Source: Gemmatimonadota bacterium
GTDB taxonomy: Bacteria > Gemmatimonadota > Gemmatimonadetes > Palauibacterales > Palauibacteraceae
Length of the DNA stretch: 46,566 nt
Direction: 5' to 3'
Assembly: GCA_022825725.1 (NCBI GenBank)
Contig: JAJDWE010000004.1
Coordinates: forward strand, 1-46,566
The notes beneath the pieces were generated by a model, which saw only the letters and a program-made list of their open reading frames with translations, was not told the DNA's origin and did not search any database. The number at the start of each line of letters is the position of its first letter. The stretch's first letter is position 1. This document shows positions 10,361 to 36,797 of this stretch, piece after piece. The position numbers and the translations under genes are program-made.

Positions 10361-10406
10361 GGGGCGGGAGGCCGCCAGCGACTGACGCGCGCACGCCGGG
10401 ATTACG

Positions 10407-12041
10407 GTGAGCGACAGGAGTCCGTACCGGACCGAACTCACGCCGCTCGAATTCCTGCGGCGGAGCGCGTCCGTGTACCCCGACAAGGCCGCCGTCGTGC
10501 ACGGCGACCGGAGCTACTCCTACCGCGAGTTCGAGCTTCGCGTGCGGCGGCTGGCAGCGGGGTTGCTCCAGGCCGGGCTCGAGGCGGGCGACCGGGTGGC
10601 CTTCCTGTCGCCGAACACGCCGCCCCTGCTCGAGGCACACTACGGGGTGCCGGCCGCCGCCGGCGTGCTCGTCGCGATCAACACGCGGCTCGGAGCGGGC
10701 GAGATCGCCTACATCCTGGAGCACAGCGGCGCGTGTTACCTGTTCGTCGACCGGGCCCTTGAGGGCCTCATCGACGAGGAGGCGCTGCGCGGCGGCGGCG
10801 TGACCGTAGTGCGGATCGACGATACCGGGGCGCCGCACGACCCCTACGAGGCGTTCCTCGCTTCCGCCGCCGATTCAGCCGGCGGCCCCGCCAGGGACTC
10901 CGCCACCGGCATCGGCGAGCCGCCCCCGCTCGCGGCCGGCCCGGCGGACGAGGAAGACCCGATCTCGATGAACTACACGTCGGGGACGACGGGCCGCCCC
11001 AAGGGCGTCGTGTACACGCACCGCGGCGCGTACCTGAACGCGATCGGGGAACTCATCGAGATGGAGATGACGCCCGGCGCCGTCTATCTGTGGACGCTGC
11101 CCATGTTCCACTGCAACGGGTGGTGCTTCACGTGGGCGGTGACCGCCATCGGAGGCACGCACGTGTGCCTGAGAGACGTCGACCCGGCCCGCATCTGGGC
11201 GCTGATCGAGTCGGAGGGCGTCACGCACTACTGCGGCGCGCCGACGGTGCAGATCATGCTCGTCAACGATCCGGCTGCCCGGCCGCTGGAGCACACGGTG
11301 CGGACGATGATCGCCGGAGCGCCGCCCTCGCCGACGCTGCTGGAGCAGTTGAAGGCGCTGAACTTCCACCCGATCCACGCCTACGGCCTCACGGAGACGT
11401 ACGGCCCCACCGCCACCTGCGCCTGGCACGCCGACTGGGACGGGCGCCCCCCCGCCGAACAGGCCCGCCTGCTCGCCCGGCAGGGCCAGGGATTCGTGAC
11501 CTCCGACCTCATGCGGGTCGTCGACGAGGAGGGCAGGGACGTCTCCCGCGACGGCGCGACGATGGGCGAGGTCGTGATGCGCGGGAACATTGTCATGAAG
11601 GGCTACTACGCGCAGCGCGAGGCCACCGACGAGGCGTTCCGCGGGGGCTGGTTCCATTCCGGGGACCTCGCGGTGTGGCACCCCGACGGCTACGTCGAAC
11701 TGCGTGACCGGGCCAAGGACATCATCATCTCGGGCGGCGAGAACATCTCAACGATCGAAGTCGAGCAGACGGTCGCCCGACACCCCGCCGTGCTCGAATG
11801 CGCCGTCATCGCCATCCCCCACGACGAATGGGGCGAACGACCGAAAGCCTTCGTCACGCTGAAGCCCGAAGCCGGGGCCACGGAACGGGAGATCATCGAC
11901 TTCTGCCGAGACCGGATCGCCCACTTCAAGTGCCCCGACGCGATCGAGTTCGGCCTCCTCCCGAAGACCTCCACCGGCAAGGTTCAGAAGTACATCCTCC
12001 GCGACCGCGAATGGACCGGCCGCGACAAGCGCATCAACTGA
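10407..12041 (+). CDS. AMP-forming acyl-CoA ligase
   Basis: 544 residues with a GTG start. It activates a carboxylic acid to acyl-CoA via an acyl-AMP in the cytoplasm. Seen: the phosphate-binding TSGTTGRPKG (191-200), the adenine-site YGLTET (326-331), the hinge/AMP region SGDLAVWHPDGYVELRDR, and the C-terminal catalytic lysine in KTSTGKVQK. The overall pattern (TELTPLEFLRRSASVYPDK at the N-terminus) is that of the medium/long-chain or methylmercaptopropionate (DmdB-like) ligase group, but substrate cannot be read from sequence. A proline/glycine-rich insertion at about 150-180 precedes the P-loop. It is next to a secreted amide/ester hydrolase gene. Confidence 0.93.
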   Translation: MSDRSPYRTELTPLEFLRRSASVYPDKAAVVHGDRSYSYREFELRVRRLAAGLLQAGLEAGDRVAFLSPNTPPLLEAHYGVPAAAGVLVAINTRLGAGEIAYILEHSGACYLFVDRALEGLIDEEALRGGGVTVVRIDDTGAPHDPYEAFLASAADSAGGPARDSATGIGEPPPLAAGPADEEDPISMNYTSGTTGRPKGVVYTHRGAYLNAIGELIEMEMTPGAVYLWTLPMFHCNGWCFTWAVTAIGGTHVCLRDVDPARIWALIESEGVTHYCGAPTVQIMLVNDPAARPLEHTVRTMIAGAPPSPTLLEQLKALNFHPIHAYGLTETYGPTATCAWHADWDGRPPAEQARLLARQGQGFVTSDLMRVVDEEGRDVSRDGATMGEVVMRGNIVMKGYYAQREATDEAFRGGWFHSGDLAVWHPDGYVELRDRAKDIIISGGENISTIEVEQTVARHPAVLECAVIAIPHDEWGERPKAFVTLKPEAGATEREIIDFCRDRIAHFKCPDAIEFGLLPKTSTGKVQKYILRDREWTGRDKRIN

Positions 12042-12199
12042 CTCCCGCACGAGAACCGCGGATCGCCTGAAGACGTTCCCGCGGACTTCTTCCGGAACGG
12101 ATTGTCTTGCACCATCCCGGCCGTCGGCGGACGCTTCGACCCCGGATCGCGGTCGGGCTGAGGCGCCCGCGTGAGAGCACCTCGCCGCTTAGCGCTGGA

Positions 12200-13195
12200 C
12201 TACCGCACCCCGTTCAGCAACGCAAGCAACTCCTCGTTTCCCTCGACGTCCAGGAAAGTGTCCCACTCGAGAAAGTAACCCTCAGGATCGTAGCCGATGA
12301 ACACGCTCACCCGTCCGCTCTCGTCGGTCACCTCCCGGGTTCGCAGCTGGAAGCCCTCGCGCCCCCGCATGTAGCTGAACCAGCCCTCCACATCGTCCGT
12401 GAAGAACGAAACCGTGACGCTCTTCTCATCGGTCGCCGAGTGGAGGCCGCGCTCCCCGTCCACGAGGCCGAGATAGCCCGAAGAAGAGACGGGAAAGACC
12501 TTGGCCCAACCCTGATCGACGATCCTTTCGCGATCGAGCATGTCGCTGTAGAAGCGTTCGACGCCTTCCAGGTCGCGGTAGTACAGCCAGAGGACGGTGG
12601 CCTGCACCCCCAGCTCGGGGGGTCGGCTCGTCTCGATTACCTGGGCCGGATATTGAACTTCGGCCCCTGCCAACCTGGGCAGCAATTGCTCGTTCTCGGC
12701 ATGCGGATTGAATCGTTCGAACTCGAGGAGGTACCCCTCGGGATCGACTGCCACGAACCCATCGTGCGGACGCCCCTCGGCCGCCCGAAAGTCGGAGCGC
12801 ATGGGCACCTCTCGAGACGTCAGGTAGTCCCACCACGCCTCGACCTGCTCGGTTACGAAGGCGAGCGTGGCGGTCCGGGGTTCGTCGGTCGAGTGCATTC
12901 CTTCGGCGGCGTCGACAAGGGTCAGGTACGAGGACTCGGCCACCCGCAGGATCTTGGCGAAACCGTAGTCGACCACGGTCGGAAGACCGAGCGTCTCAGT
13001 GTAGAAGGTCCAAGCCGCCTCAACATCGTCGTAGTAGTAGAAGGCGTTCATGGCCTGGATACCGGGCGTCCGGGTCGTGGACGCAGCCTCCCGACTCTCG
13101 CCCTCGTTGGCGGGAGGCGCCTCGGACGGCTGGCAAGCCGCGGCGACCGCAACCCCAACTGCGAGCAGGGTACGCACGGCCCGGTGAGCGGTCAT
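12200..13195 (-). CDS. Lipoprotein with two VOC (glyoxalase-fold) domains
   Basis: 331 residues from the ATG at 13195, chosen because AGGG lies about 7 bases upstream and it gives a lipoprotein signal: MTAHRAVRTLLAVGVAVAAAC with lipobox VAAAC. The frame is open further upstream (to 13324), but that part looks non-coding. Two VOC repeats are visible. One is at about 45-165 (NAFYYYDDVEAAWTFYTE, ending VDPEGYLLEFERF). The other is at about 190-320 (VLWLYYRDLEGVERFYSD, ending YDPEGYFLEWDTF). Each ends with the E-containing strand that normally contributes a metal ligand. VOC proteins include glyoxalases, dioxygenases and antibiotic-binding proteins; function here is unknown and the extracytoplasmic location is unusual. 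The gene stands alone on the minus strand beside a broken toxin gene. Confidence 0.85.
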   Translation of the reverse strand: MTAHRAVRTLLAVGVAVAAACQPSEAPPANEGESREAASTTRTPGIQAMNAFYYYDDVEAAWTFYTETLGLPTVVDYGFAKILRVAESSYLTLVDAAEGMHSTDEPRTATLAFVTEQVEAWWDYLTSREVPMRSDFRAAEGRPHDGFVAVDPEGYLLEFERFNPHAENEQLLPRLAGAEVQYPAQVIETSRPPELGVQATVLWLYYRDLEGVERFYSDMLDRERIVDQGWAKVFPVSSSGYLGLVDGERGLHSATDEKSVTVSFFTDDVEGWFSYMRGREGFQLRTREVTDESGRVSVFIGYDPEGYFLEWDTFLDVEGNEELLALLNGVR

Positions 13196-13307
13196 TCCGA
13201 ACCCTGTGAGCCAAAGGAATGGTGGGAGGCGCAAGAATATGTGCCGACGAGTGCTCGGTGGCGCACCATATGGGTCACGCTCCATGCGGCGCAACACCAG
13301 GATCTCC

Positions 13308-13478
13308 TCATCGGCGAACACCACCCGCCGAGGCTGGCGGGCGATTGGAAGCCACCACGGTGGTTCCGTCGCCGGCGAGGGCTGTCAGGTGCTCCACCGT
13401 ATGGGCGAACCGATCCCGGGGCCGGCCCGTGAGCAGGCGCACGAGGACGGATGTGTCAATCCCGGAGCGAAGGATCAT
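13308..13478 (-). pseudogene. Truncated VapC-like PIN toxin gene
   Basis: 56 codons starting MILRSGIDTSVLVRLLTGRP, the classical PIN-domain N-terminus with the first catalytic aspartate (D8). The start at 13478 overlaps the antitoxin end by 23 bases, typical of vapBC pairs. The frame then stops after TTVVASN plus a short unrelated tail. A normal VapC is about 130-140 residues and needs a glutamate and further aspartates after this point. I checked the other two frames downstream and found no PIN continuation. A 6-bp GC hairpin (13324-13341) lies at the point where similarity ends. Nuclease activity is therefore unlikely. Confidence 0.75.
13324..13341. repeat. Small GC inverted repeat at the vapC break
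   Basis: CCCGCC and GGCGGG flank GAGGCT. It coincides with the place where the PIN coding sequence loses family similarity, so it may mark a recombination or insertion junction, or be a terminator stem for the short toxin-antitoxin transcript. No T run follows. Confidence 0.4.
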
Positions 13479-13698
13479 GTCGCTGGGAGCGGAAGGCGTG
13501 AACGTCAAAGGGCTCGATTTCGGGGTCGATTTCTTCCCTCAGCGGGGCCAAGCGTGACAGGTCGATCTTATGCGGTCGTATGACGAAGCCGTGGGGCCCC
13601 TCCAGCAGTTCGAGACGGTCGCCGGGTCGGACGCCCATGGCGTCCAGGACATGCGCCGGAAGAGTGACTTGTCGCTTCGCAGTTACCTTGACGAGCAT
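13456..13698 (-). CDS. AbrB/SpoVT-type antitoxin (VapB-like)
   Basis: 80 residues from the ATG at 13698, which has GGAG 8 bases upstream; a longer frame to 13866 lacks support. The N-terminal half is the swapped-hairpin AbrB fold (MLVKVTAKRQVTLPAHVLD, then MGVRPGDRLELLE and GFVIRPHK), which binds DNA as a dimer. The C-terminal half (APLREEIDPEIEPFDVHAFR) is the acidic tail that would wrap the PIN toxin. In intact systems it neutralises VapC and represses its own operon. The toxin partner at 13308-13478 is truncated, so this gene may be a remnant or act as a stand-alone repressor. Confidence 0.85.
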   Translation of the reverse strand: MLVKVTAKRQVTLPAHVLDAMGVRPGDRLELLEGPHGFVIRPHKIDLSRLAPLREEIDPEIEPFDVHAFRSQRHDPSLRD

Positions 13699-27873: not shown

Positions 27874-28998
27874 TCAGCCGGTCCGGGCTCCCTTCGCGGG
27901 GTCGTCGTCGACCTGCGAACGTTCGCCGTCGATGAAGCTGTCGACGCTCTCGGGAACGAGGAGGCTGTCGGCGATGCGGGCGATCTCCTCCGCCTCCCGC
28001 CAGCGCGCTTCCAGTTCCTTCAGCTCCCCCTCCAAGGCCTCGCGCTCAGCCTGCTCATGCGTCGCCATCTCGATCGCCAGCCGCATGTCCACCTTGAGAC
28101 CGGTGAGCGTGCCCGGCAGGGGTTTCATCAATCCTTCGATCTTCTTCGCCGGCAGGTCGGCCTTGCCGGAGCCGGAGAAGTCGTTCATGGCGTGGCGCGC
28201 CGCCACGGGAAGAAACGCCTCCGGGTGTCCCGCCTCCTCGATCCTCCCGACCGCGTCGCGAACCGCCTTGCGCGCGCCGCCGCGCCGGTTCGCGTGCGCC
28301 ATGAGCTGGCCCGCGAGGCCGATCGCCTCGCTCCCGTGAACGATCATCGTGTGCCGCCGGTTCTTGCGCTTCCTGGTCTTCCCCCACTTGTCCCAACCCG
28401 GGATGTGATCGACGCGGAGGTCCCATCCTGCGGCATCCGCGCTCGGCACGAGACGGGAGGTATAGAGGTGCTTTCGCTGGATCCGGATCGGATCTCCGCC
28501 CTCGTCCCTGAGACGGAGGACGACGCGGTCCCGATACCAGGCCTGAGCCGCTTGAAAGAGCCCCGGGAACATGCCGCCCATCGCGAATCCGGCGAGTGTG
28601 CCTCCGACGATGACCGTGCCCGCCGCCGCTCCGACGGCCCCGGTGACGAGCGCGGCCCGCCTGCGGCGCCGGCCGAACTGGTCGCCGTAGCGCCACGCGG
28701 CGAACTCCTGCCGCACGGGATCGCCGACGCGAACGAGTTCGAGGCCCTCCTTCAGCTTCGCGAGCCCGATGTTGTCGGAAGCGACGCGCATGCGGGTGGT
28801 CTCGAAGGCGCGCTCGCACGCCTCGATCGCCTCCCAGCGGGTGTCGAGGGGGGAGAGGTTCCAGCGCTCGCAGCGCCGGCAGACGACCCAGAGCCGTCCC
28901 CTCGCGCCGTCGAAGGCGATGCGGCGGCCGACCGGGAACTCCTCAATGGCCTCGTTCCGGCCGAGGTCGCCGTGGCAGAAGATGCAGGTCGTATACAT
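27874..28998 (-). CDS. Zinc-ribbon membrane protein of unknown function
   Basis: 374 residues. The N-terminus MYTTCIFCHGDLGRNEAIEE and the later VVCRRCERWNL supply two CxxC pairs (C5/C8 and C40/C43), a zinc ribbon. A helical region follows, then a basic stretch (FGRRRRRAALVTGAVG) and a Gly/Ala-rich hydrophobic segment (about 119-150) that may form one or two membrane helices. The C-terminal half is a mixed domain with HLYTSRLVPS and IVHGSEAIGLAGQLMAH, ending in a charged coiled-coil (EQAEREALEGELKELEARWREAEE). No known catalytic motif is visible. The layout suggests a cytoplasmic sensor or scaffold tied to the membrane. It is followed by the GroES-like gene. Confidence 0.75.
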   Translation of the reverse strand: MYTTCIFCHGDLGRNEAIEEFPVGRRIAFDGARGRLWVVCRRCERWNLSPLDTRWEAIEACERAFETTRMRVASDNIGLAKLKEGLELVRVGDPVRQEFAAWRYGDQFGRRRRRAALVTGAVGAAAGTVIVGGTLAGFAMGGMFPGLFQAAQAWYRDRVVLRLRDEGGDPIRIQRKHLYTSRLVPSADAAGWDLRVDHIPGWDKWGKTRKRKNRRHTMIVHGSEAIGLAGQLMAHANRRGGARKAVRDAVGRIEEAGHPEAFLPVAARHAMNDFSGSGKADLPAKKIEGLMKPLPGTLTGLKVDMRLAIEMATHEQAEREALEGELKELEARWREAEEIARIADSLLVPESVDSFIDGERSQVDDDPAKGARTG

Positions 28999-29180
28999 TC
29001 AGTTCGTCGATCTCTTCGCTGGCAGCGGAGGTTTCAGGACCGCACGATCCCGCCGCCGGTCCCCAATGTCGCGGACGGGCTCGATCGGGGATACCCGCAA
29101 ACGACGCCGCTTCTTCCCCTCCTGCGACAGCCGCCGCCGAGCCCGCCGCGCGCCGTCCGGAGTCTTCTCCGTATGCAGAT

Positions 29181-29209
29181 TTGCGATATAAAGATGATCT
29201 TTATATCAT
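29181..29209 (+). promoter_or_regulatory. Promoter of the padR cluster, overlapped by its operator
   Basis: -35 TTGCGA (29181-29186), 17-base spacer, -10 TATCAT (29204-29209). It sits about 50 bases upstream of the padR GTG. The 23-bp palindrome at 29185-29207 covers the whole spacer and both box edges, so repressor binding would exclude RNA polymerase. Confidence 0.6.
29185..29207. promoter_or_regulatory. 23-bp perfect palindrome, probable PadR operator
   Basis: GATATAAAGAT and ATCTTTATATC flank a single central G: 11-bp arms with no mismatch, strikingly AT-rich in a GC-rich genome. Its place directly before padR suggests autoregulation. The divergent zinc-ribbon/GroES-like transcription unit starts at 28998, within about 190 bases, so control of that side is possible too. 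Confidence 0.8.
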
Positions 29210-29261
29210 ATCTCAACGGCCGGTTCGTCATGGACGTCGCCCTTCGACGCGGAGATGCATC

Positions 29262-29588
29262 GTGCAGGTCACTCTTTCGAAGCGAGTCAACGAACTGCTG
29301 GTGCTCGCGGTTCTGGAGCGGGGACCCGCGCACGGATACCAGATCGCGCTCTCCGTGGAGCAACGGACGGGGGGCGCCTTTTCGTTTCAGCACGGGACGC
29401 TCTACCCGATCCTGCACCGGCTCGAGACCGGCGGGCACGTGCGCGGCACATGGGGCGGGGAGGGCCGGCGGCGGAAGACGTACGAACTCACCGACGCCGG
29501 CCGTGCCGAACTCGCCGAGGGGGCGGCGCAGCTGGAGCGGCAGTTTCGGGTGCTGCTGGAACTCTTCGGGGGGACCCATGCGGCCTGA
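29262..29588 (+). CDS. PadR-family transcriptional regulator
   Basis: 108 residues from a GTG with GGAG 7 bases upstream; a longer frame from 29181 begins inside the promoter and is rejected. Winged-helix PadR marks: NELLVLAVLERGPAHGYQI, GGAFSFQHGTLYPILHRLETGG, and GRRRKTYELTDAGRAEL, followed by the C-terminal dimerisation helix. It probably represses its own promoter through the palindrome at 29185-29207. The inducer is unknown. Its last codons overlap the start of the HAAS-like gene at 29578, the classical PadR/HAAS arrangement in which the membrane partner relays a signal. Confidence 0.92.
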   Translation: MQVTLSKRVNELLVLAVLERGPAHGYQIALSVEQRTGGAFSFQHGTLYPILHRLETGGHVRGTWGGEGRRRKTYELTDAGRAELAEGAAQLERQFRVLLELFGGTHAA

Positions 29589-30342
29589 ACATCCCCTGGA
29601 AGACGTCGAGCGGAATCTCGCGGTGCCGCCGCGGCGCCGCCTGGACCTGCTGGAGGAAGTCGACGCCGACGCGGAAGCGCTGGCCGCCGAGCTGGAGCGT
29701 CGCGGATACGGACCGGCGCAGGCGCGCCGCGCCGCCCTCCGCCGGGTCGTGCCGGGCACGGAGACGCTCGCGCAGCTCGAGGCGCAACACGCCCCGCCCC
29801 TGGGCCGCTGGGCGCGGAGTGCGGGGTGGATCGACCGGGCGGAACGTCTCGGCATCGTCGCAGCCACGGGGCTGGCCGGGGCGGTCGCTTTCGTCACGAT
29901 GGTCGGGTCGGGCCCGCTCGGGTCCGCGGCGGTGCTGGCCTGGCCCCAGGTCATCGTGATCGCCCTTCTCGCAGCGAACTGGACGCGCGCCGCCAAGCGC
30001 CTCTGGATCGATGGCGACCTGCGGCCGGAGCTGCGACGCCGGCTGTGGGAGCGGCAGATCGGGCTCATCGTCCTCGCGGTCGCCCTCGGCGCGCTGGGCG
30101 CCGCCCGGGAGGGATACGGCGCCTTCGAAGCGTTTGCAGCCGAGGACGTTGCGCCGCCGGCCATGTGGGACGCCGTCGGCCGCATCGTCTCCTTCGCCGC
30201 ACTCGGATTCGGCGCGGCCATCTTCGGACTCTTCGGCTGGCTCGCGATCACGCCGCGCCTGATCGACGACGAGACGATGGAGCACCGCATCTCGGCCTTC
30301 TTTGCCTCGCGGCTCGCACCAACCCCATCACGGCGGAGGTAA
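29578..30342 (+). CDS. HAAS-like membrane protein, PadR partner
   Basis: 254 residues; the ATG at 29578 lies inside the end of padR (11-base overlap). The N-terminal cytoplasmic helical part (about 8-50: RRLDLLEEVDADAEALAAEL, then RRGYGPAQARRAALRRVV) looks like the HAAS signalling domain found beside PadR regulators. Four hydrophobic segments follow (about 90-110, 118-132, 157-175 and 205-230), with charged loops between. No ABC permease or protease signature is seen. It probably senses membrane or envelope state and influences PadR, as inferred from gene order in this family. Confidence 0.72.
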   Translation: MRPEHPLEDVERNLAVPPRRRLDLLEEVDADAEALAAELERRGYGPAQARRAALRRVVPGTETLAQLEAQHAPPLGRWARSAGWIDRAERLGIVAATGLAGAVAFVTMVGSGPLGSAAVLAWPQVIVIALLAANWTRAAKRLWIDGDLRPELRRRLWERQIGLIVLAVALGALGAAREGYGAFEAFAAEDVAPPAMWDAVGRIVSFAALGFGAAIFGLFGWLAITPRLIDDETMEHRISAFFASRLAPTPSRRR

Positions 30343-30344
30343 CG

Positions 30345-30713
30345 ATGTCCTTCCTGGAATCGCTCGGATTCATCCAGTATCCGATCTGGATCGTCTTGAT
30401 CCTGATGCTCGTCCAGATCGTGCGGGCAACGATCGACCTGGCTCGCCGCGGACCCCCGACGACGAGCCTGCGAATCCATTCCATCCTGATTTTCGGCGCC
30501 CTCGCCGCGTGCCTCGGCGTGCTCGGATCGCTGGTCGGCGTGTGGCTGGCGGCCGAAGCCATCTCGCGGGCGGGAGAGGTGAGCGCGTCGCTGGTGTGGG
30601 GGGGGATCCAGGTCGCCCTGGGCTCGTCCATCGTCGGCCTCCTGATCCTCGGCTTCGCGTCGGTCGCCTGGCTCGTCCTGCAATACGCGAGCGGCCGCCG
30701 CGAACCGGCATGA
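30345..30713 (+). CDS. Short MotA/TolQ/ExbB-like membrane protein
   Basis: 122 residues; GGAGG lies 5 bases before the ATG, two bases after the previous stop. Three hydrophobic segments: FIQYPIWIVLILMLVQIVRA (about 9-28), a central one (ILIFGALAACLGVLGSLVGVWLAA, about 47-70) and a C-terminal one (GSSIVGLLILGFASVAWLVLQ, about 94-114). The LGVLGSLVGVW and LGSSIVGLLILG stretches resemble the two pore helices of the MotA/TolQ/ExbB proton-channel family. It is shorter than ExbB (about 220) and no ExbD/TolR partner is adjacent, so channel function is doubtful. It is in the PadR-controlled operon. Confidence 0.65.
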   Translation: MSFLESLGFIQYPIWIVLILMLVQIVRATIDLARRGPPTTSLRIHSILIFGALAACLGVLGSLVGVWLAAEAISRAGEVSASLVWGGIQVALGSSIVGLLILGFASVAWLVLQYASGRREPA

Positions 30714-30720
30714 CGCGCTG

Positions 30721-32931
30721 ATGCCGTTCCGAACGCTCGTCGTCACGGGTCTCGTCGTCGGAATCGGAGCCTGCGCCCCGGAGCCGGAAGAAGGCGTCGG
30801 CAACGCATCGCGGCGCGACTCGGCGGGGGTGGCGATCGTCGGCAACGCGGCGCCCGACAGGCCGTTTGCGGGCGGAGCGGCGCACATCGCGGATCTCATG
30901 ACGCCGGACAGCGCGCTCACGGCACTTCCGTGGGGCGTGGCGGTGGACCCGACGACCGGGCGCATCCATGTCGCGGACGTGACGGGCGCACGGGTCGCCG
31001 TCTTTGACGCCTCCGGCGCCTTCGTGGAGGCGCTGGGGCGGGCGGGCGAAGGGCCGGGCGAGTTTCGGGGCGTGTCCGCGCTGACGCTGGCGCCGGGGAG
31101 GACGCTCGTGGCGCTCGATGCGAGGCGGGGGGTGCTCAGCCGCTGGTCTCCGGAGGGCGCGTTCGAAGGGGAGGAGCGGCTGCCGGCGGGCTACTGGGGA
31201 CCGGGCTTCGCGGTCGGCGAGGGCGAGGCGGCGGAGTGGTTCGCGACCGTGGGTTCGGTCACGGCGGATCTGTCGATGGACCAGACGCTGTCGGTGCACA
31301 CGCCGCGCGGAGCCGAACCGGTCCACGTCGTGCGGCGGGAACTGGCGCTCATGGAACTGCCGTGCGCCTCCATGCCCGCGCCGAAGGTGTTCGCGCCGGA
31401 CGTCGTGTGGGCGAGCCGCGGCGACACGCTCTGGTTCGTGAGCGGGGACGGGTTCCGGATCGACCGCTACGCGCGGGGAGCGGTCGTCGCCAGTGTGCGC
31501 CGGGCGGCGGCCCCTGCGATCCCGGTCACTCGAAGCATGGCGATGGCGTCGCTCTCATTCGGCCCGGGCCCGTACGGGAGTCTCATGCGGCAGTGCGGGG
31601 TGACCGCAGGAGAAGTCGTCGACGCCACCGGGTACGAGGATGTCCTGTCTCCCATCGTCGGATTCACGCCCGATCCGGCGGGTGGGCTGTGGGTGTCGCG
31701 GCGGGTGCGCGGCCTCCTCCCCGAGGTCATCGATGTGATGGGAGCCGGAGGCGAATACCTGGGGACGCTCGACATCCCCGCCATTCCGGTCGGATTCGCG
31801 TCGCCCTCGCGGCTGGTGACGGTGCGGCCGGTGCTGGAAACGGGAGAGGTGCGCGTGTCGCTGTATGAAGTGGGGACGGAACGCCGTGCCGCGGCGCCAG
31901 GCGTGGTGACCGCCGAGGCGGCAGGCGCCAGGGGCGCGCAGGGTGGGGGCGTGTCGGGCGGGGGCGGCCCCTCGGGTGGGAGCGCCCCCCGGGGGATCGG
32001 GTCGGTGCTGCGCGTGACCACGCAATCGCGCGCCGCCGCCGAATCGGCCCCGCCACGGCGACCGCCGGAGCCCAACCCGGCGGGTCTGCGCGAGTTCAGG
32101 GACTGCGACTTCTGCCCGGTCATGGTCGAACTGCCGCCGGGCGGGTTCGAGATGGGACGGGCCGAGGGCGAGGACCGGCGCCTGGGGCTGGACAGGGAAC
32201 CGAAGCGGCCGGAGTTCACGCGGGAGAGGGAGCGTCCGCGGGTACAGATTGAATTTGGACACCGGTTCGCCATCGGAAAATACGAGGTCACGTTCGACGA
32301 ATGGGATCGGTGCGTGGCCGAGGGAGGTTGCGACTACGAGCCCGCGGACAGGGGATGGGGACGGGGAGACCGTCCCGTGGTCCACGTCTCCCTCCTCGAC
32401 GTCGAGACGTATCTCGCCTGGCTGAGGGAGGCGACCGGTCGGCCGTACCGGCTGCCGGGCAGCGCGGAGTGGGAATACGCGGCCCGGGCGGGGACGACGA
32501 CCGCCCGCTGGTGGGGAGACGAAGTCGGGCGCGGACACGCGGTGTGCGACGAGTGCGGCCTCGAGTGGGAGGTGGGGTCCACCGCGCCCACCGGATCGCT
32601 GCCGCCCAATCCGTGGGGACTGCACGACATGCTCGGCAACGTGTCCGAACTCGTGGCCGACTGCTGGACGGCCACCTACGAGGAAGTGCCCGCCGACGGC
32701 TCGCCTGTCCGCGAAGCGTCCCCTCACTGGAGCGAAGGCCGCTGCCTCCGTCCCACCTGGCGGGGTGGCGCGTTCAGCTACTTCCGCTGGACGGTGCGCT
32801 CCGCGTGGCGCAGCGGCGGCAGCATTCTGGCCACCGCCGAAGAGCGCCACGCCCACGCGCAGGTCGGCGGTGGGACGGGCTTCCGCGTTGCCCTCACCCT
32901 CGACGCGCCTCTGCCGAACCCCGCCCGGTAG
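30721..32931 (+). CDS. Beta-propeller/SUMF1-like (FGE-sulfatase fold) fusion lipoprotein
   Basis: 736 residues. Lipoprotein signal with lipobox GIGAC (Cys18). Residues about 40-390 are a six-bladed propeller (PWGVAVDPTTGRIHVAD, VAVFDASGAFVEALGRAGEGPGEF). A low-complexity Gly/Ala/Pro linker follows (about 395-455). Residues about 465-730 are a formylglycine-generating-enzyme/EgtB-like fold: VELPPGGFEMG, FAIGKYEVTFDEWDRC, YRLPGSAEWEYAARAGT, WGLHDMLGNVSELVADCW, then WRGGAFSYFRW and GGGTGFRVAL. After GGAF the two cysteines that form the copper site of genuine sulfatase-activating FGE are absent, so it is probably not a sulfatase activator. It is the last gene of the PadR cluster, 7 bases after the preceding stop. 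Extracytoplasmic ligand binding is plausible. Confidence 0.88.
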   Translation: MPFRTLVVTGLVVGIGACAPEPEEGVGNASRRDSAGVAIVGNAAPDRPFAGGAAHIADLMTPDSALTALPWGVAVDPTTGRIHVADVTGARVAVFDASGAFVEALGRAGEGPGEFRGVSALTLAPGRTLVALDARRGVLSRWSPEGAFEGEERLPAGYWGPGFAVGEGEAAEWFATVGSVTADLSMDQTLSVHTPRGAEPVHVVRRELALMELPCASMPAPKVFAPDVVWASRGDTLWFVSGDGFRIDRYARGAVVASVRRAAAPAIPVTRSMAMASLSFGPGPYGSLMRQCGVTAGEVVDATGYEDVLSPIVGFTPDPAGGLWVSRRVRGLLPEVIDVMGAGGEYLGTLDIPAIPVGFASPSRLVTVRPVLETGEVRVSLYEVGTERRAAAPGVVTAEAAGARGAQGGGVSGGGGPSGGSAPRGIGSVLRVTTQSRAAAESAPPRRPPEPNPAGLREFRDCDFCPVMVELPPGGFEMGRAEGEDRRLGLDREPKRPEFTRERERPRVQIEFGHRFAIGKYEVTFDEWDRCVAEGGCDYEPADRGWGRGDRPVVHVSLLDVETYLAWLREATGRPYRLPGSAEWEYAARAGTTTARWWGDEVGRGHAVCDECGLEWEVGSTAPTGSLPPNPWGLHDMLGNVSELVADCWTATYEEVPADGSPVREASPHWSEGRCLRPTWRGGAFSYFRWTVRSAWRSGGSILATAEERHAHAQVGGGTGFRVALTLDAPLPNPAR

Positions 32932-32962
32932 CGGCGCCCTCCAACTCCCGGGCGCGGCCCGG

Positions 32963-32992
32963 TTGCACCGGCCCCGCGGCCCGCTCTAGACT
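32963..32992 (+). promoter_or_regulatory. Promoter of the molybdenum hydroxylase operon
   Basis: -35 TTGCAC (32963-32968), an 18-base spacer, and -10 TAGACT (32987-32992), both close to the sigma70 consensus. Transcription would start near 32999 and leave a leader of about 86 bases. The leader contains a short stem at its 5' end (CCGGC at 33002-33006 pairing with GCCGG at 33012-33016), which may stabilise the RNA. Confidence 0.55.
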
Positions 32993-33084
32993 GCATCCCC
33001 CCCGGCCGAGAGCCGGCCGGATGAGTCCCGTTCCGGAGTTAGTTCCGCCGGCGTGCCCGCCGGCACAGGATCAGGAGTGGCCGC

Positions 33085-33552
33085 ATGAAGCGCATCTCCG
33101 TCACCGTGAACGGGGTTCGGCACGAGGCGGACGTCGAACCCCGCACCCTCCTCGTTCATTTCATCCGCGAACAACTCGAACTGACCGGCACGAACGTGGG
33201 CTGCGACACGTCCTCGTGCGGCGCCTGCACGATTCTGATGAACGGTCAGTCGGCGAAGTCGTGCACCGTGCTCGCCGTCCAGGCGGATGGCGCGGAGGTG
33301 ACGACCGTCGAGGGTCTCGTGTCGAACGGCGACTGGCACCCCGTTCAGAAGGCGTTCCACGAGCAGCACGGCCTCCAGTGCGGGTTCTGCACGCCCGGGA
33401 TGATGATGGCCGCGGTGGGATACCTGGATGAGAACCCGTCGCCGACGGAGGACGAAGTCCGGCTCGCGCTGGAGGGCAACCTCTGCCGGTGCACCGGCTA
33501 CCACAACATCGTCAAGGCGGTGCTCGCGGCCGCCGACGACATGGGCTCTTAG
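33085..33552 (+). CDS. Molybdenum hydroxylase small subunit, two [2Fe-2S] clusters (CoxS-like)
   Basis: 155 residues, full length for the family. The N-terminal plant-type ferredoxin cluster has C40, C45 and C48 ([10 protein letters not shown]) and C60. The second, alpha-helical cluster has C99 and C102 ([10 protein letters not shown]) and C134 and C136 ([10 protein letters not shown]). All eight ligands are present. It passes electrons from the molybdenum site of the large subunit to FAD in the medium subunit. First gene of the S-L-M operon; the large-subunit gene starts 16 bases later. Confidence 0.95.
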
Positions 33553-33567
33553 GCGAGGAGAGAGAAC

Positions 33568-35934
33568 ATGGCGACGGCTGAGAAATACGTTGGCGGCGGG
33601 GTCCCACGGAAAGAGGATCCCAAGCTGATCACGGGGCAGGGCCAGTTCCTGGAGGGCCTCACGCTTCCCGGCATGCTTCACGCGGCGCTCGTGCGGAGTC
33701 CGCACGGGTCGGCGCGCATCAACTCGGTGGACGTTTCCGCCGCCGCGGCCGCGGAGGGCGTGGTCGCCGCGTACAGCGGGGCCGATCTCGCCGATGAATG
33801 GGCGGCGGGGCTGCCCATGGCGTGGCCCGTGACGGACGACATCAGGATCCCCGATCACTGGCCGGTGGCGCAGGACGTGGCGCGCTACGTCGGCGATGCG
33901 GTGGCGGTCGTCGTCGCCACGAGCCGCAACGCGGCGCTCGACGCGGCGGAACTCGTGGAGGTCGACTACGACGTGCTCGAGGCAGTCGTGGACGTGGAGG
34001 CGGCGGTGGCCGATGGCGCGCCGCGCGTGCACGAGTCGTTCGACGACAACAAGAGCTACACGTGGGCGCTGACGAACGGCGAGGTAGATGAGGCGTTCGC
34101 GAAGGCGGATGTCGTCGTCAAGGAGCGCTACACGCAGCCGCGGCTGATCCCGAACGCGATGGAGCCGCGCGCGGTCGTGGCGCAGCCCGTCCCCTCGACG
34201 GGCGACTTCACCGTGTGGTCCACGACGCAGATTCCTCACGTCGCGAAGGTGCTGTTCGCGCTCACGCTGGGGATCCCCGAGTCGCAGATCCGGGTCATCG
34301 CGCCCTCCGACGTGGGCGGCGGCTTCGGCTCGAAGCTGAACGTGTACGCGGAGGAGGCGCTCTGCATCGCCCTCGCGCGCCGCCTGGGGAAGCCGGTCAA
34401 GTGGGTCGCCGGCCGCAGCGAGGGATACCTCGCCACGATTCACGGCCGCGACCAGGTCCAGGAGATCGAGATCGCGGCGACCTCCGACGGCGACATCCTC
34501 GGATACCGCGTCCACATCCTCGCGGCGATGGGCGCCTACCTGCAGCTCGTGGCGCCGGGGGTGCCGCTCCTGGGCGCCTTCCTCTACTGCGGCTGTTACG
34601 GCGGAGAGGCGTACCACTTCGAGTGCACGGGCGTGTTCACGAACACGACCCCGACGGATGCCTACCGGGGCGCCGGCCGGCCGGAAGCGACCTACGCCAT
34701 CGAGCGGGCGATCGACTCGCTCGCGCGGGAGGTCGGCGTGGATCCGGCGGAGATCCGGCGGCGGAACTTCCTCCCGGCCGGCGACATGGTCCAGAGCCCG
34801 GGCGGGCTCGCCTTCGACTCGGCCGACTACGAGCCCGCGCTCGACCGGGCGCTGGAACTTCTGGACTACGACGGGTTCCGGGGCGACCAGGCGGAGCGCC
34901 GGGAGGGAGGGGGCAGCAGGCAGATCGGCGTCGGGTTCTCGTCCTACGTGGAGATCTGCGGGCTCGCGCCCTCGCAGGTGCTCGCCTCGCTGAAGTACGC
35001 CGCCGGCGGCTGGGACGCGGCGACAGTGCGCATGCTGCCGACCGGAAAGGCGGAGGTCGTGACGGGCAGTTCGCCGCACGGGCAGGGGCACGTGACCTCC
35101 TGGTCCCAGATCGCGGCGGACGCGCTCGGGATCCCCTACGAGGACGTCACGGTCCTCCATGGGGACACGCATGTGGCGCCGCACGGGATGAACACCTACG
35201 GGAGCCGCAGCCTCGCGGTGGCGGGAGTCGCGGTCCACAACGCGTGCGACCGGGTGGTAGACAAGGCGCGGGGGCTCGCGGCGCACCTGCTCGAAGTGGC
35301 GCCGGAGGATCTCGAGTACGAGGCGGGGACCTTCTCGGTGAAGGGCGTCCCGGACCGCACGAAGTCGATGCCGGAACTCGCCTTCGCGGCGTGGACGGCC
35401 CACAGCCTGCCGGAGGACTCGGAGCCCGGGCTCGAGGCGAGCTGCGTGTACGATCCGCCGAACTTCACCTTCCCCTTCGGCACGCACGTGGCCGTCGTGG
35501 AAGTGGACACGGAAACGGGCGCCGTGGATCTCGTCCGCTACATCGCGGTGGACGACTGCGGGCCGGTGATCAACCCCGTCATCGTGGATGGCCAGGTGCA
35601 CGGCGGCGTGGCGCAGGGGATCGCGGCCGCGCTGTACGAGGAGGCGACCTACGCGGAGGACGGGACGCTCGAGACCTCGTCGATGGTCAACTATCTCGTG
35701 CCCTCCGCGGCGGAGTTTCCGTCCTTCGAGACGGATCGGACTGTGACGCCGAGTACCTCGAACCCCATGGGAGTGAAGGGGATCGGCGAGGCGGGGACGA
35801 TCGGGTCCGCGCCGGCGGTGATCAACGCGATCGTGGATGCGCTCTCGCATCTCGGCGTGACGGACGTCCCGATGCCGGCGAGTCCGGAACGGGTGTGGCG
35901 AGCGATTCAGGCGGCCAACGGAGGTGAGGCATGA
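33568..35934 (+). CDS. Molybdenum hydroxylase large subunit (CoxL form II class)
   Basis: 788 residues, the usual length. It binds molybdopterin cytosine dinucleotide and oxidises the substrate. Seen: VPRKEDPKLITGQGQF at the N-terminus, DVGGGFGSKLN (cofactor binding), the active-site loop AYRGAGR (365-371), SSPHGQGHVTSWSQI, and the catalytic glutamate in KGIGEAGTIG. AYRGAGR marks the form II group; genuine aerobic CO dehydrogenase has AYxCSFR, so CO oxidation is not supported. Aldehydes or N-heterocycles are likelier substrates. The ATG of the FAD subunit gene overlaps the stop (ATGA). The enzyme is cytoplasmic; no signal peptide is present. Confidence 0.94.
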   Translation: MATAEKYVGGGVPRKEDPKLITGQGQFLEGLTLPGMLHAALVRSPHGSARINSVDVSAAAAAEGVVAAYSGADLADEWAAGLPMAWPVTDDIRIPDHWPVAQDVARYVGDAVAVVVATSRNAALDAAELVEVDYDVLEAVVDVEAAVADGAPRVHESFDDNKSYTWALTNGEVDEAFAKADVVVKERYTQPRLIPNAMEPRAVVAQPVPSTGDFTVWSTTQIPHVAKVLFALTLGIPESQIRVIAPSDVGGGFGSKLNVYAEEALCIALARRLGKPVKWVAGRSEGYLATIHGRDQVQEIEIAATSDGDILGYRVHILAAMGAYLQLVAPGVPLLGAFLYCGCYGGEAYHFECTGVFTNTTPTDAYRGAGRPEATYAIERAIDSLAREVGVDPAEIRRRNFLPAGDMVQSPGGLAFDSADYEPALDRALELLDYDGFRGDQAERREGGGSRQIGVGFSSYVEICGLAPSQVLASLKYAAGGWDAATVRMLPTGKAEVVTGSSPHGQGHVTSWSQIAADALGIPYEDVTVLHGDTHVAPHGMNTYGSRSLAVAGVAVHNACDRVVDKARGLAAHLLEVAPEDLEYEAGTFSVKGVPDRTKSMPELAFAAWTAHSLPEDSEPGLEASCVYDPPNFTFPFGTHVAVVEVDTETGAVDLVRYIAVDDCGPVINPVIVDGQVHGGVAQGIAAALYEEATYAEDGTLETSSMVNYLVPSAAEFPSFETDRTVTPSTSNPMGVKGIGEAGTIGSAPAVINAIVDALSHLGVTDVPMPASPERVWRAIQAANGGEA

Positions 35935-36797
35935 TCCCCGCGTCTTTCGACTACGAGCGCGCTTCGTCTCTCGATGAGGCGCTGAGCCTGCTCGCGGCGG
36001 GCGGCGAGGATGCCAGGCCGCTGGCGGGCGGACATTCGCTCCTGCCGCTCATGCGGCTGCGGCTCGCGCGGCCCTCGCTGTTGGTCGATATCGGCGGTCT
36101 CGACGAACTGCGCGGCGTTCACGATGACGGCGATTCGGTCACGATCGGAGCCCTGACGACGCACCACGAGGTGGCCGGCGCGGCCGCTCTCACGGGCGGG
36201 AGCGGTCTCATCGCAAAGGTGGCGGGGGGGATCGGCGACCCCCAGGTGCGGCACCGCGGCACGCTCGGCGGTTCGGTCGCGCACGCGGATCCGGCCTCGG
36301 ATCTGCCGGCGGCGCTGCTCGCCCTCGATGCCGAGGTCACCCTCGCGGGGCCCGGCGGCACGCGCTCGGTCGCGGCGGCGGATTTCTTCATAGGGCCGTT
36401 CATGTCGGCGGCGGACGATGGCGAGATCGTGACCGGCGTCCGGGTGCCGAAGCAGGAGGGCTGGGGCAGTGCCTACCAGAAGTTCCAGCGCCGCGCGCAG
36501 GACTGGGCGATCGTCGGCGTGGCCGCGGTCGTGAACTGGACGGACTCCGGCATCGCGGGTGCCGCGATCGGGCTCACGAACATGGGCGGCACGCCGCTCA
36601 GGGCGCGCGCGGTCGAGGCGGCGCTGACCGGCACGTCCGAGAAGGCGCAGATCCTCGAGGCGGTGTCGAAGGTGTCGGAGCTCGAGACGCCACCGGCGGA
36701 TGAGAATGCGAGTTCGGAGTACCGCCTCCACCTCGCGCAGGTGTTGATCGCGCGCGCGGTGGCGGAGGCCGCCGGCTGTCCGGGGATGCAGCGATAG
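35931..36797 (+). CDS. Molybdenum hydroxylase FAD subunit (CoxM-like)
   Basis: 288 residues. It has the [20 protein letters not shown]-terminus, the first FAD loop [17 protein letters not shown], the second FAD motif [19 protein letters not shown], and the C-terminal CO dehydrogenase flavoprotein domain (about 175-280). It transfers electrons from the iron-sulfur subunit onward to the respiratory chain or O2. The gene order S-L-M here differs from coxMSL. Its 3' end overlaps the region from which the flavin amine oxidase must start, so the two are probably co-translated. Confidence 0.94.

Follow-up and report, generated by a model that had tools for sequence, protein, structure and literature searches.

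Four densely packed genes on the forward strand of a 46,566-nucleotide (nt) stretch of DNA from a Gemmatimonadota bacterium (GCA_022825725.1, contig JAJDWE010000004.1, positions 1–46,566; hereafter the window) encode a PadR repressor, a HAAS-like membrane protein, a short TolQ-like protein that we call mini-TolQ and a propeller-bearing lipoprotein, in that order, at 29262–32931. We find that PadR, the HAAS protein and mini-TolQ form a conserved unit; that the HAAS protein has a membrane half which is, judging by profile comparison, a paralogue of the adjoining mini-TolQ; and that a palindrome inside the promoter-like site ahead of the genes is the probable operator bound by PadR. With moderate confidence, we read the locus as an autorepressed PadR-HAAS envelope switch, in which a TolQ-type heteromer lacking ExbD is coupled to an exported propeller lipoprotein. 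A preliminary description of this DNA had reported the same four genes at these positions, and all four frames were recovered there on one strand, with an 11-nt overlap between padR and the HAAS-like gene, a 2-nt gap before the mini-TolQ gene and a 7-nt gap before the lipoprotein gene.

To place the locus among its relatives, 395 Gemmatimonadota genomes were searched, and mini-TolQ profile matches set apart from canonical TolQ/ExbB were found in 64 of them, a few cut by contig ends. The mini-TolQ set scored at least 56.8 bits, mostly over the whole model, versus at most 49.1 bits for canonical TolQ/ExbB, which matched over the second and third helices only. Leaving out two weak matches (G254:C32 and G386:C18), the sample comprised 68 mini-TolQ loci, the window included, of which 62 could be assessed upstream, the other six ending too close; many of the 68 come from few genera, so they are not independent events. 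A scan of genome contigs returned nine loci, every one a relative with at least 55% identity. HAAS and PadR genes lay upstream of mini-TolQ on the same strand in 58 of the 62 assessable loci. Linkage of mini-TolQ and of the lipoprotein to padR in related genomes was the test that the preliminary description had set itself, and in Gemmatimonadota neighbourhoods the mini-TolQ part stands. Linkage of the lipoprotein holds for part of the loci: in 33 of 68 a same-strand propeller gene sits beside the triad, following mini-TolQ in 20 and preceding padR in 13, and in two more (L123, L128) it is divergent. As about half of the loci lack a same-strand propeller, the lipoprotein does not seem to be needed for the core.

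The mini-TolQ protein scored 26.7 bits against the Pfam model MotA_ExbB (cut-off 22.9; E-value 5e-6), a model that matched all 19 aligned mini-TolQs at E ≤ 0.1 (best 7.9e-10), and the family profile matched solved TolQ chains over helices 2 and 3 (E-value 1.4e-4). At the positions of TolQ T145 and T178, named as candidate proton-transport residues in the accessible part of PMC12965293, mini-TolQ carries S62 and S95, with serine or threonine in 16 and 17 of the 19 aligned sequences, respectively. Helices 1 and 2 are separated by seven residues (34–40) in a low-confidence model, and the large cytoplasmic domain is not present. No ExbD was detected among 9,274 frames from 80 stretches by phmmer with the own genome's three ExbD proteins as queries, a search that very distant ExbD could escape and that did not extend to MotB-type partners; the three ExbD genes themselves all lie on other contigs. 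Because partner gene and large cytoplasmic domain were both looked for and neither was found, the locus is not an energised TolQR/ExbBD complex, in agreement, as far as tested, with the short MotA/TolQ-like protein without ExbD of the preliminary description.

Comparing the two membrane proteins with hhalign aligned mini-TolQ with residues 112–230 of the HAAS protein over 118 columns (all rows: probability 96.3, E-value 1.9e-9, score 63.2), against scores of 21.3 and 20.7 with one side reversed and 30.7 for the best of 40 window-shuffled controls. The signal comes mainly from distant rows, the probability being 97.3 with distant rows alone and 76.0 for close mini-TolQ versus distant HAAS rows. 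Across the same 9,274 frames at E ≤ 0.01, the HAAS profile matched only HAAS (62) and mini-TolQ (51) frames, while hits of the mini-TolQ profile were confined to mini-TolQ (70) and HAAS (15) frames. The MotA_ExbB model matched the membrane region in none of the 17 aligned HAAS members (window protein included) at E 0.1, the link running only via the mini-TolQ profile, and the HAAS profile found nothing better than E 0.16 among Protein Data Bank (PDB) sequences. The hydroxyl residues are not shared: the window paralogue has alanine at both TolQ positions, and serine or threonine occurs there in 2 and 0 of the 17 members. With the HAAS membrane domain a TolQ-like paralogue, the membrane relay is probably a two-subunit TolQ-type complex. 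At two loci (L148, L152), two mini-TolQ genes stand in tandem downstream of PadR-HAAS, which hints at a heteromeric bundle.

The palindrome, GATATAAAGATgATCTTTATATC, lies 54 bases upstream of padR and, like the promoter-like site around it, precedes the start coordinate of the preliminary description, where both were missed. In 100 window shuffles we obtained no match at three or fewer mismatches, while sites with at most two mismatches numbered 17 in 16 of 80 genomes (own genome included), every one at a mini-TolQ locus; a backward control pattern gave no sites in the same 80 genomes. Across 11 genus loci the palindrome shows 98% mean pairwise identity, versus 63% for the preceding 60 bases and 57% for bases 7–50 after it. 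For a further survey of operators, sequence upstream of the first gene was searched with GATATANAGANNNTCTNTATATC and its best match compared with 200 shuffles, a site being called where at most two shuffles did equally well; one locus (L069) has too little upstream sequence. A site was found before padR in 40 of 44 testable padR-first loci (all except L072, L151, L153 and L159), and in the 13 propeller-first loci it was found before the propeller in 11 (all except L129 and L135) and before padR in none, suggesting that the propeller there is under the same kind of operator. That the palindrome stands before whichever gene leads, padR or propeller, counts in favour of the switch. Since it lies inside the promoter-like site, a protein bound to it would be expected to block RNA polymerase. 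Within the own genome, one further site within three mismatches was found (C77:20286–20308, L078), between two divergent genes. A regulon beyond the operon was considered and rejected: this is the single extra site, and its flanking genes are of no obvious relation. As the next site is both weaker and single, PadR probably acts on its own operon as the output, and the circuit is probably autoregulatory.

Table 1. Features of the PadR–HAAS–mini-TolQ–lipoprotein locus, in positions of the window.
Feature	Position	Strand	Evidence or remark
Promoter-like site TTGCGA-17-TATCAT	29181..29209	+	Sole promoter-like match in 28950–33150; mean 0.1 in shuffles
Perfect palindrome with arms of 11 bases and a centre of 1 base, GATATAAAGAT g ATCTTTATATC	29185..29207	.	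Inside promoter-like site; probable PadR operator
padR, 108-amino-acid winged-helix repressor, GTG start	29262..29588	+	PF03551 E 8.3e-25; PadR-like crystal structures match
HAAS/permease-prefix membrane protein, 254 amino acids, four long hydrophobic helices (low-confidence model)	29578..30342	+	
HAAS / permease prefix domain 1, residues 12–56	29611..29745	+	NF038403 E 2.8e-5 (below cut-off); 15/17 aligned members
TolQ-like three-helix region of HAAS protein, about residues 112–230, mini-TolQ paralogue (by profile comparison)	29911..30267	+	hhalign 96.3, E 1.9e-9
mini-TolQ, 122 amino acids, three helices, no large cytoplasmic domain	30345..30713	+	S62/S95 at TolQ T145/T178 positions
Lipoprotein with signal peptide (lipobox-like IGAC ending in C18, by eye), propeller and PvdO/FGE-like domain	30721..32931	+	
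Propeller region	30811..31920	+	DUF5128 E 2.2e-7; NHL just under its cut-off
PvdO/formylglycine-generating-enzyme (FGE)-like domain	32071..32931	+	FGE-sulfatase E 5e-38; closest solved relative PvdO E 4e-27

The first gene product scored 87 bits against Pfam PF03551 (cut-off 27) and 82 bits against padR_acidobact TIGR03433, under its cut-off of 101.8. For the second, the evidence behind the HAAS-like label of the preliminary description is mixed: the NCBIfam model perm_prefix_1 matched 15 of the 17 aligned members at E ≤ 0.1 (best 3.6e-9) but the Pfam HAAS model only 3 of 17, and the window protein itself falls under both cut-offs (see below). Following the HAAS domain, the low-confidence model shows four long hydrophobic helices, a fusion to a membrane domain. 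Elsewhere in the own genome (L001, C71, approximately 10377–13598), another PadR has both a HAAS-like membrane protein and a propeller-like lipoprotein in its vicinity, as read by eye; PadR-HAAS-propeller may be a recurrent theme.

The lipoprotein scored 131.6 bits against FGE-sulfatase (cut-off 23.3) and 30.8 bits against the DUF5128 propeller model (22.9). Its C-terminal domain belongs to the same sequence family as PvdO, the closest solved relative, and FGE, and has a DCxxCP stretch in common with PvdO; unlike them, it lies behind a propeller in one protein. In FGE, the copper-binding cysteine pair lies after the RGG motif, and the window protein has no cysteine there. At three loci (L066, L122, L139), separate genes on either side of the triad encode propeller and PvdO-like domain, whereas at four others (L064, L140, L141 and L142, in genomes G069, G166, G271 and G206) a single open frame spans mini-TolQ, propeller and PvdO-like domain. 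Three of these four have no ATG, GTG or TTG from helix 3 to the lipobox-like cysteine; in the fourth (L142), helix 3 contains a GTG, and an ATG stands two residues ahead of that cysteine. An arginine-rich linker follows helix 3 in the one-frame loci, as would fit a cytoplasmic end followed by an exported domain. The four genomes belong to one genus, so the joinings represent few events. Close PvdO-like relatives (at least 268 bits) number 41 in the 395 genomes, 29 of them at mini-TolQ loci (the one in G016 cut by a contig end).

The switch we propose would work as follows. PadR would bind the palindrome within its own promoter and keep the operon low, and the HAAS domain, on the cytoplasmic side of a TolQ-like membrane domain, would hold or release PadR. 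Mini-TolQ and the TolQ-like domain of the HAAS protein would co-assemble into a TolQ/ExbB-type helix bundle without ExbD/TolR, and the exported propeller and PvdO-like lipoprotein would be the outside, ligand-binding part. The state of the lipoprotein would pass through the mini-TolQ/HAAS bundle to PadR, and the operon would be expressed, the direction of control being our assumption. What is observed beneath this model is the gene order, its conservation, the palindrome and its position, the homology of the membrane proteins and the one-frame joining in four relatives, while for its PadR end there is precedent in the HAAS-PadR model from the literature and in the lltR operon of Listeria. The preliminary description had proposed an outside binding module, an inner-membrane relay and a DNA-binding output, and this scheme fits better given the conserved triad, the lipoprotein in part of the lineages and the one frame in four genomes; its last two parts change, with the operon itself as the probable output and a two-subunit TolQ-type complex as the probable relay. 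A bolder variant, which we regard as unlikely, is a stator-family transcriptional sensor: a TolQ-type heteromeric ring of hydroxyl-keeping mini-TolQ and degenerate HAAS-TolQ, without ExbD, that would report to PadR on the ion motive force, the state of the membrane or the lipoprotein load. If true, it would show a proton-motor fold turned into a signalling receptor.

Several observations weigh against the proposed switch. The HAAS domain of the window is under the curated cut-offs (13.4 bits against 27 for Pfam HAAS, 23.9 against 30 for perm_prefix_1). The membrane-pair alignment is weak with close rows alone (probability 22.4) and for distant mini-TolQ versus close HAAS rows (7.3). AlphaFold2 models of HAAS and mini-TolQ were poor (mean predicted local distance difference test scores of 59.6 and 64.1, from 10 and 9 alignment rows), and Foldseek against the PDB found nothing for either at E ≤ 0.001; ranks 1–9 for the HAAS model were all from ExbB or TolQ complexes (E-values 0.25–0.65, TM-scores to the query 0.22–0.26, root-mean-square deviations 21–22), suggestive at most, and the mini-TolQ model returned a mixture of helical proteins, among them a single ExbB chain at rank 5 (E-value 2.2). 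Four of the 62 assessable loci lack HAAS, PadR or both (neither in L150, L155 and L158; PadR only in L156), and 6 of the 57 loci testable for an operator have no site by a limit that was chosen after the data were seen, in a survey whose consensus was drawn from some of the surveyed loci and which counted sites with up to six mismatches. The lipoprotein is the loosest part: in 35 of 68 loci the triad has no propeller gene next to it on the same strand, some of the linked copies appear broken (L058, L062, L156), propellers are common, with 12 DUF5128 matches in the own genome, and 12 of the 41 close PvdO-like relatives lie away from mini-TolQ, although two of these (G010, G402) probably belong to the same kind of locus, truncated at a contig end. 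The 11 stretches retrieved for these 12 contained no PadR, HAAS or mini-TolQ that could be found.

The same facts can be arranged differently. PadR could itself sense a small molecule in the cytoplasm; the HAAS protein, mini-TolQ and lipoprotein would then be no sensor but the effector under its control, such as a complex for uptake or for protecting the envelope. We consider this possible, if on the doubtful side. Among the solved PadR-like proteins that the window PadR matches are 3f8b and 3f8c, which we take to be LmrR, a cytoplasmic sensor of this kind. With an operator almost private to the operon, the operon products look like the output, and the DUF1700 membrane protein of such an operon in Listeria is treated as an effector gene in the accessible text of PMC6624303. 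Such a role sits poorly with the cohesion of the triad at loci without the lipoprotein, and with the account in PMC11237479, in the part available, of HAAS as always beside a PadR gene and fused to several unrelated membrane domains, which argues for a direct PadR partner.

It is also conceivable, though quite improbable in our judgement, that mini-TolQ functions as a proton-driven motor subunit and moves the lipoprotein with one of the ExbD/TolR proteins of the genome, borrowed in trans, PadR only setting the dose. The hydroxyl residues kept at the proton-path positions and the three ExbD genes elsewhere in the genome would suit a motor; the failure to find ExbD at the loci, the mini form lacking the large cytoplasmic domain and the HAAS paralogue, which seldom has a hydroxyl at these positions, would not. 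Finally, to the idea that these are chance or drifting neighbours without joint function we give almost no credence: PadR genes (six) and DUF5128 propellers are numerous in the genome, but the idea is contradicted by the linkage at 58 of 62 loci, by an operator that is conserved and tracks the first gene, and by the one-frame joining.

Returning to the proposed switch, its closest published counterparts are HAAS-PadR systems, with which, as far as tested, the locus belongs. In the accessible text of Ravi et al. 2024 (PMC11237479), the PadR-HAAS dyad is put forward as a signalling pair that could stand in for a two-component system and is linked to membrane stress; HAAS is proposed to bind and release PadR, DUF1700 is placed in the HAAS superfamily, and uncharacterised HAAS fusions with six, four and two transmembrane segments are named. 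The locus shares with these dyads a stand-alone PadR winged-helix gene, adjoining a HAAS-like domain, weakly recognised by its models in the window protein, that is fused to a multi-transmembrane domain. It differs in that this membrane domain is TolQ-like, that a separate mini-TolQ is a regular third gene, and that a propeller/PvdO lipoprotein joins in part of the lineages, none of which appears in that text. The Listeria operon lltR-lmo0600 (DUF1700)-lmo0601 (exoprotein), up approximately 100–150-fold on LltR inactivation according to the part of PMC6624303 available, is likewise autorepressed and combines PadR with a DUF1700 membrane protein and an exoprotein, but its exoprotein is DUF4097, not propeller/PvdO, and no TolQ-like protein is seen in that part of the source. 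With the TolQ/ExbB/MotA stator family, mini-TolQ shares helices 2 and 3, the GxxGT/S motif, the second hydroxyl position and the Pfam MotA_ExbB match; it is unlike that family in having no ExbD/TolR/MotB partner gene found (only ExbD was sought), no large cytoplasmic domain and a link to a repressor.

The preliminary description did not know this combination as a described system. In the literature searched, neither a TolQ-like pair as sensor nor a propeller/PvdO lipoprotein as partner was found, and a search joining PadR with MotA, TolQ and ExbB gave no paper; the PadR-HAAS pair, however, had already been described, PMC11237479 being the only paper on it among the matches listed. New here are the palindrome, the relationship between the HAAS membrane half and mini-TolQ, and the one-frame and split-gene arrangements of the propeller and PvdO-like domain. 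How the varied membrane domains of PadR-HAAS dyads relay signals can be asked of a small, defined four-part system whose membrane part appears homologous to a family with many solved structures, whose probable operator is known to the base, and whose natural one-frame joinings suggest which parts touch. If the switch is real, it would extend the TolQ/ExbB/MotA family from motors to receptors, and the HAAS-to-PadR step would become testable.

Around the operon, a gene beginning MYTTCIFCH (zinc-ribbon-like by eye; 27874–28998) adjoins it as a single copy in the window and as a tandem pair in L048, L049, L053, L056 and L057. Downstream, three genes at 33085–36797 resemble, by eye, a CoxS/CoxL/CoxM-type molybdenum hydroxylase; such genes follow the operon in several genus loci and are not in L048, L049 and L053. 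A Palauibacter-like copy of the operon was also seen in L041 (contig JAPPHB010000009.1, titled Gammaproteobacteria) and in G397:C41, a contig of the same length (40262), the latter genome also having a different-family copy (G397:C81); the L041/G397:C41 copy probably sits on a contaminant contig within a mislabelled metagenome bin.

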